From NCBI GenBank assembly GCA_017480545.1, contig JAFVAI010000078.1, positions 1 through 54,301 of the forward strand: 54,301 bases of DNA, read 5' to 3'. Positions 18,941-28,708 of the stretch are shown one piece after another. A program made the position numbers and the translations under genes. The notes under the pieces were generated by a model. That model was not told where the DNA came from. It did no database searches and saw only the letters and a list, made by a program, of their open reading frames with translations. The stretch's first letter is position 1; each line of letters opens with the position of its first letter. This stretch comes from Schwartzia sp. (in: firmicutes). GTDB taxonomy: Bacteria; Bacillota; Negativicutes; Selenomonadales; Selenomonadaceae.

Positions 18941-19250
18941 ACATTCCACTCCTTATTTAATGAAATCATTTGCGGGAAACGCGCTCCGCACGCGCTCCGA
19001 AGAAGCCGGAAATTTGCGCGGCTTCTCACGGTTCGGAAACGCCGCCTCCCTTCCCTTGCCCGAAAAACGCGGCGGATCGCCGCCCGTCTTGTCAGACAAT
19101 TCGTACTTGCCTTAATTATAATGCGAACGGCGGTGGATTGCAATGAAATTTTTCCGCGCGAAATTTTTCGGGCAAAGAGGAAATTTTGTCGGCGTGGCGA
19201 ATATTTTTCATAATAATATTCAAAAACGGCGGCACAGTGTGGAGGACAGT
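18941..19250. other. divergent intergenic region
   Basis: About 310 bases between the leftward binding-protein gene and the rightward glycosyltransferase gene. An AT-rich box at 19112-19122 contains TATAAT on both strands (plus 19117-19122) and could give -10 elements either way, but no well-spaced -35 was found. No gene seen. Confidence 0.4.
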
Positions 19251-21017
19251 ATGGAAGATCGGATCGGCGAGGAAAAAAAGACAGATAAAGAGGAATGGCT
19301 GGCGGCGGCCGCGCGCTTTTGCCATGAGGGCGATTTCAAGGGAATGCGCGCCTGCGCCCGGGAAATCCTCGCCCATGATTTCGACGACGTGGACGGGCAG
19401 GCGCTTTTCGCGCAGGCATCTCTCTACCTGGGCGAGGAAGAGACGGCGGAAAGTGTCGTGCGCCGTCTTTGGGACACTGCGCCCCGCCACTGGCGGCTGC
19501 TTTTGGTGGCGGGCGAGCTTCACGCGCTGCGGTTTGAAATGCGGCAGGCCATCGACGTTTTGAAACGGCTATGGACGCTGGGGCAGGCACGGACGGGGGC
19601 GGTGGCGCCTTACGACATGGCGATCATGGAACGCGCGGGGCGGCTTTTGACCGACGCCTGCTATCTTCTGGCGCGCCCCGACGAGGCGGCGGAATATCTT
19701 TTCGAGCTCGTCGGCATCATTCAGGACTTGCAGACGAAAGAGGAGCTTTACAGCAAGGCGCTGTTCCTTTCCAATTATCGCTTGGAGGGGCAGCAGAACC
19801 GGACGCGCCGGGAAGGCATCAACGGCTTCTTCGGCGCGAAGGTCACGATGCCGCACACGCGCCCGGCCTCGGTGCCGGACCGGAAAATGCGGATCGGTTA
19901 CATCTCGCCCGATCTGCGCGAGCACGCCGTCGCGAATTTTCTCTCGCCGTTTTTCCGGAATTTCGCGAAGCTGGATTTTAATGTGTTCTGCTATATGACG
20001 GGCACGCCGGACAACATCACCCAACGCTTCAAGCGGAGCGCGGTGAACTGGCGCGAGCTTCAGGGACTTTCCCCGCAGGAGGCGGCGCGCCGCATTTATC
20101 GCGACCATGTGGATATTCTCGTGGATTTCGCGGGCCATTCGCAGGGCTCGAGCTTGGCAACGCTCGCTTACCGTCCCGCGCCGATTCAGATGACCGCCAT
20201 CGGCGACGTGGGCTCCACGGGCCTTCGGGAGATCGATTACTTCCTTTCCGACGGCTACTGTTCGCCGCCCGATCGCCCCACGCCGGAATTCACCGAGCGG
20301 CTGGCACGGGTCCCGGATTGCCATTTGTGCTATGACCCGACCATCCTGCGCCCGCTGCCGGAGCCGGGGGCGGAGCCGCCCGCGCAGCGAAACGGATATG
20401 TGACCTTCGGAAGCTTCAACAATTTCGCCAAGGCGAGCCGGGAAACGCTGGTGCTCTGGCGTTCCGTGCTCGAAGCCGTTCCTCGGTCGCGGCTTGTCAT
20501 CAAAGGGAAAATCGCGTCGGTGCCGGACGGCGAGGAGGAAGCGACGGCGCGGCTGGCCGGGGTCGGCATCGACCTTGCGCGGGTCGATCTTCGTCCGTAC
20601 AGTCCCGATTATTTGGAGCAATACCGCGACATCGACATTGCCCTGGACACGACGCCGTTCACCGGAGGGTTGACCACTTGCGAGGCGCTCGTCATGGGCG
20701 TCCCCGTGGTTTCGTTGAAAGGCTCGACCCATGCCGCGCGCATCGGCACGAGCATTTTGGAAAACGCGGGACTGCCGGAGCTTGTCGCGTCGAACGGGAC
20801 GGAATATGTGAGAAAGGCGGCGCGCATCGCCGGGTCGCTTCCGATTCTCGTCAAATTTCATGGCGGCCTTCGCGAGGTCATGCGCGGCTCGCGCCTGATG
20901 GACGCGAAAGGCTACATGAAAAGCGTGGAAGCGCTGTATCGGTCGATTTGGCAGGACTATTGCACGGGCGGGGAGAAATGGGCTTCCAAAGGCAGGCAGT
21001 TTTTCCACGGCGTATAG
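19251..21017 (+). CDS. SPINDLY-type O-GlcNAc transferase with TPR-like N-terminus
   Basis: A 588-residue protein. Residues ~1-185 are helical repeats of TPR type. The C-terminal ~400 residues are a family 41 glycosyltransferase domain: MRIGYISPDLREHAVANF, a VTFGSFNNFAKAS element, and the sugar-nucleotide site DTTPFTGGLTTCEALVMGVPVV. Family 41 enzymes add GlcNAc to Ser/Thr of proteins in the cytoplasm. Flagellins begin about 2.2 kb downstream, with a YjfB motility gene between, so flagellin glycosylation is a reasonable inference. ATG 19251 follows GGAGG; an in-frame ATG at 19143 lacks a ribosome site. Confidence 0.85.
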   Translation: MEDRIGEEKKTDKEEWLAAAARFCHEGDFKGMRACAREILAHDFDDVDGQALFAQASLYLGEEETAESVVRRLWDTAPRHWRLLLVAGELHALRFEMRQAIDVLKRLWTLGQARTGAVAPYDMAIMERAGRLLTDACYLLARPDEAAEYLFELVGIIQDLQTKEELYSKALFLSNYRLEGQQNRTRREGINGFFGAKVTMPHTRPASVPDRKMRIGYISPDLREHAVANFLSPFFRNFAKLDFNVFCYMTGTPDNITQRFKRSAVNWRELQGLSPQEAARRIYRDHVDILVDFAGHSQGSSLATLAYRPAPIQMTAIGDVGSTGLREIDYFLSDGYCSPPDRPTPEFTERLARVPDCHLCYDPTILRPLPEPGAEPPAQRNGYVTFGSFNNFAKASRETLVLWRSVLEAVPRSRLVIKGKIASVPDGEEEATARLAGVGIDLARVDLRPYSPDYLEQYRDIDIALDTTPFTGGLTTCEALVMGVPVVSLKGSTHAARIGTSILENAGLPELVASNGTEYVRKAARIAGSLPILVKFHGGLREVMRGSRLMDAKGYMKSVEALYRSIWQDYCTGGEKWASKGRQFFHGV

Positions 21018-21958: not shown

Positions 21959-22756
21959 ATGGTGAAAGAAATGAAAAAGTTTATGACGCTTTGTTTGGTG
22001 GCGCTTCTCGCGTTGGCCACGCTGGCCGCCGGTTGCGGCGGGGGCGGCGACAAGAAGGACGCCAAGGGAGACCCGAAGGCGGAAAAGGTGCTTCGCATCG
22101 GGTGCAACGCGGATTTCGCGCCGTTTGAGTTCCAGGATGTCAGCGGCAAGGAGTACCAAGGCTTCGATATGGACCTGATTCGCGCCGTGGCGAAGGAAAT
22201 GGGCTACAAGGCGGAAATCCAGAACCTGAATTTCGACGGCCTGATCCCGGCGCTGGAGGCCGACAACCTCGACGTCATCATCTCGGGCATGACGATCAAC
22301 GACGAGCGCAAGAAAAAAGTTGACTTCTCCGATCCGTATTACAAGTCCGGCCTTTCCATCATCGTGAAGAAGGACGACACTTCCATCAACAAATTCTCCG
22401 ACCTGAAGGGCAAGAAGGTTGCCGTGCAGATCGGCACCACCAGCGCGATGGAGGTCAAGAAGATCGAGGGCGCGGAAGTCAAGGAGTTCAACAGCTCCGC
22501 CGACACGTTCCTCGAGCTGAAAGCCGGCGGCGTCGATGCCGTCGTCAACGACCGCCCGGTCAACGACTACTACATCATGAAGAGCGGCGTCACCGATGTC
22601 CGCCGCCTCGAAGAGCTTCTGACCTCCGAGGACTACGGCATTGCTTCCTCGAAGAAAAAGCCGGAAATGAAGAAACAGATTGACGCCGCGCTGAAAAAAT
22701 TGCACGACAGCGGCGAATACGACAAGATTTTCAAGAAGTGGTTCGGCAACGGCTGA
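21959..22756 (+). CDS. amino-acid ABC transporter substrate-binding lipoprotein
   Basis: A 265-residue exported binding protein of family 3 (polar or basic amino acids). The lipoprotein signal ends in LAAGC, followed by a Gly/Lys linker, then LRIGCNADFAPFEF, a GFDMDLIRAVAKEMGY helix and DVIISGMTIN, the hallmark ligand-site segments. It is monocistronic, closed by a strong terminator. The most likely permease and ATPase partners are at 28049-29411, about 5.3 kb away beyond the flagellins. ATG 21959 is chosen; an in-frame GTG and ATG lie just downstream and the ribosome site spacing does not settle it. Confidence 0.9.
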   Translation: MVKEMKKFMTLCLVALLALATLAAGCGGGGDKKDAKGDPKAEKVLRIGCNADFAPFEFQDVSGKEYQGFDMDLIRAVAKEMGYKAEIQNLNFDGLIPALEADNLDVIISGMTINDERKKKVDFSDPYYKSGLSIIVKKDDTSINKFSDLKGKKVAVQIGTTSAMEVKKIEGAEVKEFNSSADTFLELKAGGVDAVVNDRPVNDYYIMKSGVTDVRRLEELLTSEDYGIASSKKKPEMKKQIDAALKKLHDSGEYDKIFKKWFGNG

Positions 22757-22833: not shown

Positions 22834-22849
22834 TGTTTCACGTGAAACA
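22834..22849. other. parS: parS site (ParB/Spo0J binding)
   Basis: TGTTTCACGTGAAACA is a perfect 16-bp palindrome and an exact match to the Bacillus-type parS consensus TGTTNCACGTGAAACA. ParB-CTP clamps load there and spread, and recruit SMC for chromosome segregation. It lies in a non-coding gap of about 420 bases (22757-23174). parS sites usually cluster around the replication origin, so the window may lie in the origin-proximal part of the chromosome. Confidence 0.92.
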
Positions 22850-23085: not shown

Positions 23086-23095
23086 CCCCCCCCCC
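23086..23095 (+). repeat. C10 homopolymer upstream of the flagellin promoter
   Basis: Ten consecutive C end seven bases before the sigma-28 -35 element. Tracts of this length are prone to slipped-strand mispairing. Confidence 0.9.
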
Positions 23096-23102
23096 GTTTC
23101 GC

Positions 23103-23130
23103 TTAAGTTTTTCCGCAGAATGTGCGATAA
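23103..23130 (+). promoter_or_regulatory. sigma-28 (FliA/SigD) promoter of the flagellin genes
   Basis: TTAAGTTT (23103-23110), 12-bp spacer, TGCGATAA (23123-23130), close to the flagellar sigma consensus TAAAGTTT-N11-GCCGATAA. It lies about 45 bases before the first flagellin ATG and probably drives both flagellin genes. Confidence 0.8.
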
Positions 23131-23174: not shown

Positions 23175-25163
23175 ATGGCTATGACAGTAAAAAATAATGC
23201 GTCAGCTTTATCAGCGTTGAATCAACTGGGGCGCAACAATTCGGATTTGAAGAAACAATTGAAGAAAGTTTCTTCTGGCATGCAAATCAATGGTGCGAAC
23301 GATGATGCATCAGGCTACTCGATTTCGGAGCGCATGCGTGTTCAAATTCGCGCTCTTTCCCAGTGCAGCGATAATACGTCCACGGGAAAAAGCATGCTCC
23401 AGATTGCCGCTGGAGCGGTAGATCAGCAAATTCAGATTTTGGGTAAAATGCGCGAGATAGCGATGAAGGCATCAGACGGCACGTATGCTCAAGTGGATCG
23501 TGATGTGCTCCAGAACGAGACGACGCAGCTTGCCATGCAACTCAATGCGATTTCGTATGAAACGAATTACAATGACAAGCAGTTGTTAAATGGGAGTATT
23601 TATATGGGAGAGATATCATCGTCGTTCAATTCTGGTGGCGGCATGACGGACAACACGGTGGACGGTGTCGTACCCATGCCGAACGGCGTGACGGATGGCG
23701 GGGGCAGAGGAATTACGGGGTATGGTCCTGGACAGTATGGGGCTTTGCCCTCCATTGTTTATGATTCGACGCAACTCGATCCCATGTCCAGTTTCCCGTC
23801 TTCCGGGCAGACAGTTCTTGATAGCACAGGCAATACTAGGTATTCTGTCACGACGGATCCGAGCAACAACAATTGTTTGTCGGTGAACATTGGCGGAAAT
23901 TTGCAGCCGATTGTCATTGGAGGACAAGACAGCAATGGTAATCCGGCGACGGGCTTTACGCCCTATGCGCATCCGCAAAAAAGCCCTGTCAATACGGGAG
24001 ACAGCGTACTTCGGAGCGCAACGGAGTTAGCGGCCAATGCAAAAACGGTGCGGGAAGATTTTGCGGGGAATCAGATTGTCGACGGTTGGGGCAGCATGTC
24101 CGACTACAAATTGGATTTTTCCAATGTCACATCGGGCGGTAACCCGATTACGTTTCCCGCTGGCTTGAATGATCAAGGTTTTACGATTATGTGCGCGGCG
24201 TGTGACCAATTCATCAGTGTCAAATTTGACGCGAACAAGCCGAGCGGGACGGGTATGTACGCGCAAGATCCGGGCAATCAATCCGAAGCCTATATGATTG
24301 GGATTGGCGGTGCGGCTACAGCAGATGATGTGTTGGCGGCACTGTGGGACGGGTTGCAAAACGCCGCTGGAACGACAGCGAACAGCGGAATATCGACGCT
24401 CAACGGAGGCACGTTGGAAACGCTGCAATTGGCATTGAGGCATAATATTGCAATTAATAAATATACAGATGCCAGCGGGAATGTTTCATATTATATAACG
24501 AAAGACGGACCGGAGTTTTGTTTTTATAATGGCTTCCAAGGAACATTGGAGATACAGGGTGGGCGCAAGCCATGGCAGGATTTTTTCATCCAGGGGGATA
24601 CGCGCGGTTCGCAGAATACTCGTTTGGAGTTCCCGAACACGACGCTCGATATGCTGTTCCCTTCGGAGAAATCGGAGTGGATGATTGATCCGACTGCCGA
24701 CGATATCCCAAATCCATGGCCCGACGAGCTTCGCACACTTAGTACGCAGGATCGTATTTATTACAGCACAAAATATGGTTGTACTGACGACGACGAAATC
24801 CGCCGCGAAAAGTGGCGCGACGAAATATGGCCGTATCCGCGCAAAGGCGCGGTAGTCAGCGGAAGTTGCGTTCGGACGCGCGAAAAGGCGCAAAAATTTT
24901 GCGAGGATATTGATCAGGCTCTCAAATATTTGTTGCATTGTGGTACGACGCTTGGTGCACAGATGCAGCGCATGGACGCGATGGATGGTAATATCGTGAT
25001 GAATGAAGAGAATACACAGAGCGCGGAGAGTACGGTACGCGATGCGGATATGGCGAAGGAAATGACGGGCTATACAAAGGCGAATGTGCTCGCGCAGTCG
25101 GCGCAATCCATGCTTGCACAAGCGAATCAGGCGCTTGGCGGTGTGCTTGACTTATTGCAATAA
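23175..25163 (+). CDS. flagellin with a large central variable insert
   Basis: A 662-residue flagellin, much longer than the usual ~280-500. The N-terminal ~145 residues are a typical D0/D1 region (LKKVSSGMQINGANDDASGYSI is recognisable), and the last ~90 residues are the D1/D0 C-terminus (NTQSAESTVRDADMAKEM, ending LGGVLDLLQ). About 400 residues between form a Gly/Asn/Ser/Thr-rich insert unlike any domain I recognise, with several cysteines (MCAACDQ, YGCTDDD, GSCVR), unusual for an exported flagellin. Codon use is AT-richer than in flanking genes, suggesting transfer or surface-driven divergence. It is in an operon with the flagellinolysin, 22 bases apart. Confidence 0.92.
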   Translation: MAMTVKNNASALSALNQLGRNNSDLKKQLKKVSSGMQINGANDDASGYSISERMRVQIRALSQCSDNTSTGKSMLQIAAGAVDQQIQILGKMREIAMKASDGTYAQVDRDVLQNETTQLAMQLNAISYETNYNDKQLLNGSIYMGEISSSFNSGGGMTDNTVDGVVPMPNGVTDGGGRGITGYGPGQYGALPSIVYDSTQLDPMSSFPSSGQTVLDSTGNTRYSVTTDPSNNNCLSVNIGGNLQPIVIGGQDSNGNPATGFTPYAHPQKSPVNTGDSVLRSATELAANAKTVREDFAGNQIVDGWGSMSDYKLDFSNVTSGGNPITFPAGLNDQGFTIMCAACDQFISVKFDANKPSGTGMYAQDPGNQSEAYMIGIGGAATADDVLAALWDGLQNAAGTTANSGISTLNGGTLETLQLALRHNIAINKYTDASGNVSYYITKDGPEFCFYNGFQGTLEIQGGRKPWQDFFIQGDTRGSQNTRLEFPNTTLDMLFPSEKSEWMIDPTADDIPNPWPDELRTLSTQDRIYYSTKYGCTDDDEIRREKWRDEIWPYPRKGAVVSGSCVRTREKAQKFCEDIDQALKYLLHCGTTLGAQMQRMDAMDGNIVMNEENTQSAESTVRDADMAKEMTGYTKANVLAQSAQSMLAQANQALGGVLDLLQ

Positions 25164-25185
25164 CCTTTTAAGGAGTTCATCTATC

Positions 25186-26961
25186 ATGGCAATGGTTATC
25201 AAAAACAACGAGTCGGCGGTCAATACGCTGAATTCTCTCAACAAGAATGCAAGCGCGTTGCAAAAAAACTTGCAAAAGGTTTCCTCCGGTATGCGGATTA
25301 ACGGCGCGGCGGACGATGCGTCGGGGTACGCGATTTCAGAAAGGATGCGCGTACAGGTGCGTGCTCTCGATCAGGCCAATCGCAATACCCAAAACGGTCA
25401 GAGCATGATGCGTGTGGCGGAGGGGGCAGTCGCCTCTTCTGTGGAGATTTTACGCACACTGAAGGAAAAGGCGTTGGACGCGGCGAACGATACGAACACG
25501 GACGTGGATCGCGCCACTATTCAAAAGCAGTTGGACAAGGCCATCGACCAGCTGGACGAAAACGCGGCAGTTACATTCAATGGAAAACGGATGCTGGATG
25601 GTTCTATGACGCTTCCGAGCAACGTGGAACAAACGATTGTCAAGGCGCTGAATACGGAGTGGATTGAAAACAGTCTGCTGTTGATTGAGGATTCTATCGG
25701 CCTGAAATTTCGTGATCCAGATGCTACGGTCAATCAGATTACCGTGGTGTTGGATACGGGTTCGGGGCAAAACGGCACACTGGCCTATGTCTCGACGTTG
25801 GCAAGCGGGAACCCGTTGCAGGCGCGTCAACTGGAGCTTCATATCAATATGGATTATTACAATTCCCTGAACTTGGACGATGTAAACGGTAGCGCGGCGG
25901 CTACCGGCGCTTATCTTGACCGTACGTTGGCGCATGAATTCACCCATGCGGTCATGGCTGCGAATATCGACTATTTTTCTCAAATGCCGCTTTACATCAT
26001 TGAAGGTATGGCGGAGGTTGTACACGGCATTGACGACGAACGGAGGACGCGCATTTCAAATCTCGCGACGAGCGGCGCGTCGACGCTTCAAACTATTTTC
26101 ACTACCGGTGGCGTTTCGGGCGATGCCGATGTTTACGCGGGCGGCTATATGTTGCTTCGTTATATGGACAAGCAGGCAGGGCATGGCACTGTCAAACGTT
26201 TCGTGGAAGAACTGAGTGAAAAAGGCGGTACGGCGGCGGGGATCGATCAGTCGGTCAAGGCGGCAACGGGCGGGAAATATGGTACGCTTGCTGACTTGAC
26301 AGCGGCGTTTATGAGTGATCTGAGCGCGAGCGGCGGCGGTACGATTTTTTTGAAAGATTATTGCGGCATCGATTTAACGAATCTGGATACGGGTGCGTTG
26401 ACAGGAAAGGACGCGGGCGGCGACCAAGTTAAGACACCTGAAAGTGTTGTCCCGGAAGCGGGTTCGACGCTCTTTTGGTATTTTCCCAATTCGCGGTCGT
26501 CTTATGTTGAGGGGCTGGAAGTCATTTGGCCGTCGCCGTGGCAGTACGCGCCGAAAACGGTTACGTTTCAAGTCGGCACGAAAGCGAATCAGGCCATCAA
26601 AGTTGGCTTTTCCGATATGCGCGCGGAAGGGCTTGGCTTGAAAGACAAGAACGGCAAGACGTTGTCTGTTGCGACACGGCAAGCAGCAACGAACGCAATC
26701 CATGTCATCGACCAAGCGATTACAAAGGCTCTTGACCAACAGACGACGATTGGTGCGTTGGAAAGCCGTCTGGAATACACGTCGAGCAATCTCGTGCTGA
26801 ACAGCGAAAACACGCAGTCGAGCGAGTCGACAATTCGTGACGCGGATATGGCAAGGGAAATGGCAGAATATACGAAGAACAACATCTTGTTGCAAGGTGC
26901 CCAGTCCATGTTGGCGCAGGCGAACCAGAACAGTTCGTCGGTGCTGAGCTTGCTGCAATAA
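25186..26961 (+). CDS. flagellinolysin: flagellin with inserted HExxH metallopeptidase
   Basis: A 591-residue flagellin with intact D0/D1 ends (KVSSGMRINGAADDASGYAI and NTQSSESTIRDADMAREM, ending SSSVLSLLQ) and a ~340-residue central peptidase domain. The zinc motif is HEFTH (residues 250-254, context LAHEFTHAVMAANI); Glu273 or Glu277 (IIEGMAEVVHG) is the likely third ligand, a gluzincin pattern. The HEFTHAVM motif and layout match the published flagellinolysin family, whose members assemble into proteolytically active filaments. AAGGAG precedes ATG 25186. It shares the sigma-28 promoter upstream of the first flagellin. Confidence 0.93.
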   Translation: MAMVIKNNESAVNTLNSLNKNASALQKNLQKVSSGMRINGAADDASGYAISERMRVQVRALDQANRNTQNGQSMMRVAEGAVASSVEILRTLKEKALDAANDTNTDVDRATIQKQLDKAIDQLDENAAVTFNGKRMLDGSMTLPSNVEQTIVKALNTEWIENSLLLIEDSIGLKFRDPDATVNQITVVLDTGSGQNGTLAYVSTLASGNPLQARQLELHINMDYYNSLNLDDVNGSAAATGAYLDRTLAHEFTHAVMAANIDYFSQMPLYIIEGMAEVVHGIDDERRTRISNLATSGASTLQTIFTTGGVSGDADVYAGGYMLLRYMDKQAGHGTVKRFVEELSEKGGTAAGIDQSVKAATGGKYGTLADLTAAFMSDLSASGGGTIFLKDYCGIDLTNLDTGALTGKDAGGDQVKTPESVVPEAGSTLFWYFPNSRSSYVEGLEVIWPSPWQYAPKTVTFQVGTKANQAIKVGFSDMRAEGLGLKDKNGKTLSVATRQAATNAIHVIDQAITKALDQQTTIGALESRLEYTSSNLVLNSENTQSSESTIRDADMAREMAEYTKNNILLQGAQSMLAQANQNSSSVLSLLQ

Positions 26962-27029: not shown

Positions 27030-27908
27030 ATGACGAAAGCGAAGCGTTCTTATAAGGATGGCGTATTTCGGTCGTTCTTTCGGGAAAAGGAGAATTTTCT
27101 TTCCCTTGCCGCCGCCGTCACGGGAGAAGCCTTTGATCCCGACGAGGCGAGGGAGAACACGGTCGAGAATGTTCTGTTCAACCGCTTGCGGAACGACATA
27201 TCGTATATCATTGGCAAGGCAAGCCTGGTCTTTTTTGAGCACCAGAGCACTTGGAACGGCAATCTGCCGATACGCCTGTTGTTTTATCTGGCGGAGCTTT
27301 ACAAAGGGATTGTGCCGGCGGATTTGATTTACCGGGAAAAGCCGTTTTCCGTCCCGGCGCCTCGTTTTTTTGGCTTTTACAACGGAACCAAGGAAATCCC
27401 GGAGAAAACGACGATGCGGCTCAGCGATGCGTTCCGTTCGGGCTCGAAATCGGACATGGATTTGGCCGTGACCATATACAACGTCAATTATACGGAAACA
27501 TCCAAACTGCTCCGCGATTGCCGCCCGATGCACGATTACAGTTTTTTCGTTCATCGGATACGGGAAAACGAGGCACGGGGCATGGGAAAGGAAGATGCCA
27601 TTGAAGAGGCGATGCGGGAATGCATCGGCCGGGATGTGATGAAATCCTATTTGGAACAGCATTGGGAGGAGGTCTTTTCCATGGTGAGCTTGAAGTGGAA
27701 CGAAGCGGACGCGAGAAAATCGTATTACGAGCAGGGCATGGAGCAGGGCATGGAGCGCGGCATGGAGCGCGGCATGGAGCGCGGGCGGGAAGAAGAGCGT
27801 GTGTCGATGATACGGAATCTTTTGCTGGCAAATACGCCCATGGAGTACATCTGCAAGGCTTCCGGCTGGACGGAGGACAAAGTGCGGGGGTTGCAGCTCG
27901 CGCATTGA
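27030..27908 (+). CDS. Rpn/PD-(D/E)XK nuclease-family protein
   Basis: A 292-residue protein of the Rpn (YhgA-like, transposase_31) group, recombination-promoting PD-(D/E)XK nucleases present in many copies in Firmicute and rumen genomes. The N-terminal domain has KDGVFRSFFREKENFL and the catalytic-type segment FFEHQS (E-x-Q) followed by IRLLFYLAELY. Near the C-terminus an E-Q/R-G-M tetrapeptide repeats four times (from a 12-bp DNA repeat, 27731-27778) and leads to a helical end (TPMEYICKASGWTED) typical of these proteins. A GGAGGGG site precedes the ATG. It has its own promoter and terminator. Confidence 0.85.
   Translation: MTKAKRSYKDGVFRSFFREKENFLSLAAAVTGEAFDPDEARENTVENVLFNRLRNDISYIIGKASLVFFEHQSTWNGNLPIRLLFYLAELYKGIVPADLIYREKPFSVPAPRFFGFYNGTKEIPEKTTMRLSDAFRSGSKSDMDLAVTIYNVNYTETSKLLRDCRPMHDYSFFVHRIRENEARGMGKEDAIEEAMRECIGRDVMKSYLEQHWEEVFSMVSLKWNEADARKSYYEQGMEQGMERGMERGMERGREEERVSMIRNLLLANTPMEYICKASGWTEDKVRGLQLAH
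27731..27778 (+). repeat. 12-bp tandem repeat inside the Rpn-like gene
   Basis: Four head-to-tail copies of GCRSGGCATGGA: two with GCAGGG and two with GCGCGG at the start. The unit is a multiple of three, so copy-number change alters linker length without a frameshift. Confidence 0.9.
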
Positions 27909-27970: not shown

Positions 27971-28048
27971 TGTTGCGCATTTGGGGCGGTTGAAATATAA
28001 TAAATATGGTTGCTTTGAATTTGTCCGAAGTAGGTGAAAGGGTTGGAT

Positions 28049-28708
28049 ATGGATTTTGAGCTGATGGCGCAGGCGGTGCCGCTTCTTTTGACGGGGGCGG
28101 CGGTGACGGTGCAGATTACCGCGCTGTCTGTGCTGCTTGGCATTTTGATCGGGCTTTTTGTCGGTGTCGCGCGGATTTCGACGTACCGGGCTGTGAATCT
28201 TTTGGCGGCGGTGTACGTCGATTTTTTGCGGGGGACGCCGCTTCTCGTGCAGATTTTTCTCGTGTATTTCGCGCTCCCCGTGGTGACCGGGCAGCGGATT
28301 GATCCGTTCATCGCGGCCATCGCTGCTTGCAGCATCAACAGCAGCGCGTATGTGGCCGAGATTTTCCGCGCGGGGATTCAGTCCATCGACGCGGGGCAGA
28401 TGGAGGCCGGGCGTTCCCTCGGCATGACGTGGATGCAGACGATGCGTTATATCATCATACCGCAGGCGGCGCGGCGCGTGATCCCGCCGTTGGGCAATGA
28501 GTTCATCGCGCTGTTGAAGGATTCATCGCTGGTGTCGGTCATCGGCTTCGAGGAGCTGACGCGCCGCGGCCAGCTTATTATCGCGCGGACTTACGCGTCT
28601 CTGGAAATCTGGATTTGCGTCGCGATCATTTACCTCGTGATGACGGTTTCGATTTCGCGGCTCGTCGCATGGCTCGAACGGAGGTGCAAGATCGATGATC
28701 AGCGTTAA
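28049..28708 (+). CDS. amino-acid ABC transporter permease (His/Glu/Gln type)
   Basis: A 219-residue inner-membrane permease of the polar amino-acid (HisMQ/GlnP) family with about five membrane segments. The N-terminus [14 protein letters not shown] and the coupling loop [25 protein letters not shown] (around residues 125-150) are typical. ATG 28049 has AAAGGG eight bases upstream; GTG 28034 is a weaker in-frame start. It overlaps the ATPase gene by 14 bases. The operon contains no binding protein; the lipoprotein at 21959-22756 is the likely partner. Confidence 0.9.

Follow-up and report, generated by a model that had tools for sequence, protein, structure and literature searches.

A flagellinolysin from a Schwartzia genome and Selenomonadaceae relatives whose protease insert appears circularly permuted

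In this study we describe a gene from a 54,301-nucleotide stretch of Schwartzia sp. DNA (contig JAFVAI010000078.1, the whole of which we call the window) whose product is, judged from its sequence, a further member of the published flagellinolysin family, adding an example from the Negativicutes. We put the probability at roughly 0.85 that this protein is exported, packed into the flagellar filament beside a companion flagellin and displayed at the filament surface as a zinc protease that cuts extracellular proteins. A comparison with related genomes indicates that the protease is likely to exist in two circularly permuted forms, and that in the Selenomonadaceae the module has probably been exchanged between filament proteins and a family that is probably secreted by the type I route.

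The gene (25186..26961, forward strand, as are all features given below for the window) extends from an ATG at 25186 to a stop at 26961 and encodes 591 residues; an alternative start at 25084 would add 34 residues and overlap the upstream gene. A preliminary description of the window had proposed a flagellin with intact export and assembly ends that carries HEFTH and EGMAE segments, and had assigned it to the flagellinolysins of a Negativicute. Each of these points was upheld. Flagellin_N (PF00669) matches residues 5-142 (E 1.7e-33) and Flagellin_C (PF00700) residues 506-590 (E 7.6e-22), both over their Pfam cut-offs and corresponding to the N-terminal D0/D1 helices (residues 1-140, 25186..25605) and the C-terminal helices (residues 500-591, 26683..26958), respectively. 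The curated NCBIfam equivalog for flagellinolysin, NF033876, gives 293 bits (cut-off 205, E 4.6e-87), and the host belongs to the Selenomonadaceae. Between the flagellin ends lies a protease insert of the gluzincin type, which falls into two halves. The catalytic one (residues 146-331, 25621..26178) is delimited by the secondary structure of a protein model and by profile matches in 104 relatives, and the C-terminal helical one (residues 338-455, 26197..26550) by profiles and the rotation test described below. The HEFTH zinc motif occupies residues 250-254 (25933..25947) and EGMAE residues 273-277 (26002..26016), which together provide the HExxH motif (H250, E251, H254), a probable third-ligand glutamate (E273) and a basement alanine (A276).

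A model of the 591-residue protein, built from an alignment of 26 sequences, has a mean pLDDT of 82, with residues 146-450 mostly above 85, and predicts a beta sheet, an HExxH helix and a Glu helix in the catalytic half. The flagellin ends of the model match flagellin filament structures with the D0/D1 fold (Z ~22). Structural searches of the model with Foldseek and VIA-align gave match lists occupied by flagellins, drawn in by the flagellin ends, and so speak to these ends rather than to the putative protease fold. A profile search of the PDB with the insert alignment returned no collagenase; its matches were confined to TAL-effector repeats and designed bundles, and we take them to be due to chance.

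To assess the active site we aligned 104 homologues, comprising 47 canonical flagellins, 24 permuted flagellins and 33 permuted non-flagellins. No member of this set varies at His250, Glu251 or His254, which places the observed motif far beyond chance, even as the insert shares only 40-51% identity with its canonical relatives. The preliminary description had asked which of Glu273 and Glu277 is conserved, and the alignment favours the former: Glu273 is retained in 103 of 104 sequences, the single exception being alanine, while Glu277 is retained in 99, with aspartate in the other five. The published third ligand and basement residue of FliA(H) are Glu262 and Ala265 (PMC5595980, PMC7643111), an ExxA spacing equal to that of Glu273 and Ala276. 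Glu273, rather than Glu277, is thus the probable third zinc ligand, and Ala276 would by the same spacing be the basement residue. The alanine variant is a permuted protein of Selenomonas ruminantium ATCC 12561 (locus L119, 3646-5538, equivalent to L038, 2049-3944), and its gene adjoins a canonical copy that has the glutamate.

Among known systems, the closest likeness is to FliA(H) of Clostridium haemolyticum and HgrFlaMP of Hylemonella gracilis, which also combine flagellin ends with an insert in the hypervariable region and carry HExxH with a distal Glu at ExxA spacing; the single continuous match of the window's protein to the family model is what would be expected for the same order of halves. 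Their hosts belong to a different phylum or class, and the window's gene, known from its sequence, differs in lying among non-flagellar genes, together with a companion flagellin and an Rpn-like ORF. A weak likeness to peptidase family M9, the clostridial collagenases, extends over the HExxH/Glu region (PF01752, residues 247-329, E 2.9e-5), but at 23.9 bits it falls below the Pfam cut-off of 26, so that the protein is not assigned to M9, and collagen-binding domains are lacking. Eckhard et al. described flagellinolysins as a discrete family distant from M9 (PMC5595980).

In the mechanism that we propose, the flagellin ends would direct export through the flagellar type III apparatus and assembly, alongside the companion flagellin, into the filament. 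In place of the hypervariable region there would be the zinc protease, with His250, His254 and Glu273 as putative zinc ligands and Glu251 as the general base, and its display at the filament surface would allow the cleavage of extracellular proteins. Proteolysis has been published for purified C. haemolyticum filaments and for the recombinant H. gracilis protein (PMC5595980, PMC7643111), and it is by analogy with these two characterised members that we infer activity, calcium dependence and surface display; co-assembly with the companion is suggested purely by gene order. In further support, intact genes of the same order that retain the insert occur in dozens of Selenomonadaceae.

Two other roles for the protein were considered. 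The insert might be a structural or adhesive surface domain in which the motif is kept but not used for proteolysis, and the loss of the third ligand in the permuted copy of ATCC 12561 does imply that loss of activity is tolerable in strains with several copies. The invariance of His250, Glu251 and His254 and the near-invariance of Glu273 in an insert that is otherwise so divergent make this very improbable. Alternatively, the protein could leave the cell through the flagellum and then work as a soluble protease, free of the filament, an option put forward in PMC7643111. We regard this as unlikely, given that both polymerisation ends are intact and that the C. haemolyticum protein resides in the filament (PMC5595980, PMC7643111). 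An enzymatic component of the filament remains our preferred reading.

A survey of 189 genomes of the Selenomonadaceae gave single NF033876 matches over the cut-off in 53. Many additional matches covered the catalytic half alone, often in frames of about 600 residues, and inspection of these loci revealed the cause: the insert stands in the other order, with the C-terminal helical half leading and the HExxH half following. Scoring the order with four profiles (flagellin N, catalytic half, C-terminal half and flagellin C) resolved 43 distinct canonical flagellins, 23 permuted flagellins with a further one truncated where its contig stops, 33 permuted non-flagellins and one canonical non-flagellin (L053). 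In the permuted flagellins the C-terminal half precedes the catalytic half with E values from 3e-35 to 5e-22. The permuted genes are not a metagenome artefact, since they are carried by the cultured isolates Schwartzia succinivorans DSM 10502, Anaerovibrio lipolyticus DSM 3074, Anaerovibrio sp. RM50 and S. ruminantium ATCC 12561, the last of which has a permuted gene next to a canonical one, with a plain flagellin coming after the two. One protein (L085) has a tandem arrangement of C-terminal, catalytic, C-terminal and catalytic halves, the kind that might be expected of an intermediate between the two orders. Of four permuted flagellins scored over their whole length, three pass NF033876; the curated model does not separate canonical from permuted flagellins and gives both one name, and annotation consequently hides the difference in order.

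The survey also yielded several unusual gene structures. At locus L041 (5177-8503, genome G169) a flagellinolysin is fused head to tail, within one ORF of 1109 residues, to a further complete flagellin, and L078 and L165 resemble this fusion; a G11 tract is located 41 bp upstream of the fused gene of L041. At L055 (738-2509) the flagellinolysin is split into two overlapping frames, with the break after the HExxH region, reflecting either a frameshift or an assembly error.

Key to interpreting the two orders is a rotation test, in which the insert of each protein was rotated, the flagellin linker trimmed and the result scored against a profile of the canonical insert. Rotation raised 18 of the 24 permuted flagellins from 200-233 bits to 279-311 bits; before rotation the score covers the catalytic half of the profile and afterwards nearly its whole length. 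None of the 43 canonical proteins benefited. The other six permuted flagellins, which form one rumen clade and have extra sequence behind the catalytic half that was left untrimmed, showed no gain, and their half order is taken from profile matches alone. In the model of the window's protein the permutation break falls at about residues 331-336, in a region of pLDDT ~95 where a loop of three residues connects two helices, and a model of one permuted protein (L130, 5197-6975, of S. succinivorans DSM 10502), of lower confidence at a pLDDT of 63, has the same elements in rotated order. The swapped order could instead reflect independent shuffling of two separate domains, as might be read from the profiles, which report the halves as separate matches. 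We consider this quite unlikely: the cut sits at the short, confidently predicted loop just described, every permuted flagellin holds each half once, and rotation restores a single full-length match in the 18 proteins while helping no canonical one.

The direction of the change may be gauged from 398 genomes sampled within the phylum, of which only two outside the Selenomonadaceae pass the cut-off. Matches in those two span the entire model, as does the canonical order, and this favours canonical as the ancestral state. In quick trees, both for the catalytic core and for the flagellin ends, the permuted flagellins fall into two groups; a single clade was not rejected for the flagellin ends (AU p 0.154) or the catalytic core (AU p 0.741). 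Within the permuted form of the Selenomonadaceae, non-flagellin N-terminal heads are at least as frequent as flagellins. In the non-flagellins the module lies mostly near the N-terminus and RTX nonapeptide repeats are often present, which suggests type I secretion of the repeat-bearing members. The joining of a protease module to RTX repeats recalls the serralysin-like type I secreted metalloproteases, but the module of these relatives is a permuted flagellinolysin gluzincin and not a metzincin, with the route of secretion inferred from the repeats only. Permuted flagellinolysins are not mentioned in the main text of PMC5595980 or PMC7643111, nor did searches of open-licence literature on flagellin permutation, domain insertion and Selenomonas flagellin yield a mention; this does not prove novelty, and the permuted half order, in flagellins and non-flagellins alike, appears to be new.

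Returning to the window, the large companion flagellin noted in the preliminary description is present immediately upstream (23175..25163, 662 residues, with PF00669 and PF00700). Its central region of ~430 residues (~145-575) has no Pfam or NCBIfam domain; the C-terminal part of that region is 30% identical to a 982-residue flagellin that a congener has in the equivalent position. A gap of 22 bp separates the companion from the flagellinolysin gene and contains the AAGGAG ribosome site of the latter (25170..25175), and a pattern scan located a sigma-28-like promoter, TTAAGTTT...GTGCGATAA (23103..23130), 72 bp ahead of the companion's start. Given this short gap with its ribosome site and the promoter 5' of the pair, co-transcription is plausible, as is the shared promoter first suggested. 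Similar sites occur in 29 of 122 flagellin upstream regions in the same kind of scan, and in the stretches examined a plain flagellin gene lies no more than 300 bp away from at least 29 of 50 canonical flagellinolysin genes. The C10 tract upstream of the promoter hexamers (23086..23095) was likewise confirmed. The phase variation proposed from it was not supported: the tract is not conserved in relatives and is absent from the same-site flagellin of a congener, C/G runs of at least 7 are found in only 3 of 122 flagellin upstream regions (the window's own included), and about ten runs of at least 9 occur across the genome.

The two flagellin genes and an ORF resembling Rpn-family recombination-promoting nucleases/transposases (27030..27908; TIGR01784, E 1.8e-7, below the cut-off) form a block between genes for an amino-acid ABC transporter substrate-binding protein (21959..22756; PF00497, E 4.5e-45) and permease (28034..28708; orthologues in congeners 90-94% identical). 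The transporter genes are adjacent, 117-217 bp apart, in three congeners; a fourth (G137) has the single 982-residue flagellin directly 5' of the permease, and a fifth has two ORFs between them that by eye encode sulfur amino-acid enzymes. Since empty, single-flagellin and other-ORF versions thus occur among congeners, this spot reads as a site of variable content. Disruption of a transporter operon by the block was considered and rejected on reading the sequence: the binding-protein gene is followed by a terminator-like stem, and the permease is preceded by a promoter-like sequence that is kept at occupied and empty sites. A perfect parS-type palindrome, TGTTTCACGTGAAACA (22834-22849), where none is expected by chance, lies between the binding-protein gene and the block, with a near match in the gap of another congener (G133). 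Upstream of the block, a gene of glycosyltransferase family 41 (O-GlcNAc transferase-like, 19143-21017) encodes a product that could modify flagellin. FlhA and FliS are encoded in the same genome, in an assembly that is 82% complete, as are at least two further flagellins on another contig (C19), from which the main filament may be built instead.

Together, these comparisons suggest that the relatives matter more than the window's gene alone. The discovery paper left the origin of the inserted protease undetermined (PMC5595980); if our reading is correct, the permuted proteins that are not flagellins would supply its close non-flagellin relatives, with the RTX-type members being a candidate source, or sink, of the module. 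Furthermore, permutation of a protease between two flagellin ends would represent a natural experiment on the ways of connecting an enzyme to the polymer that carries it.
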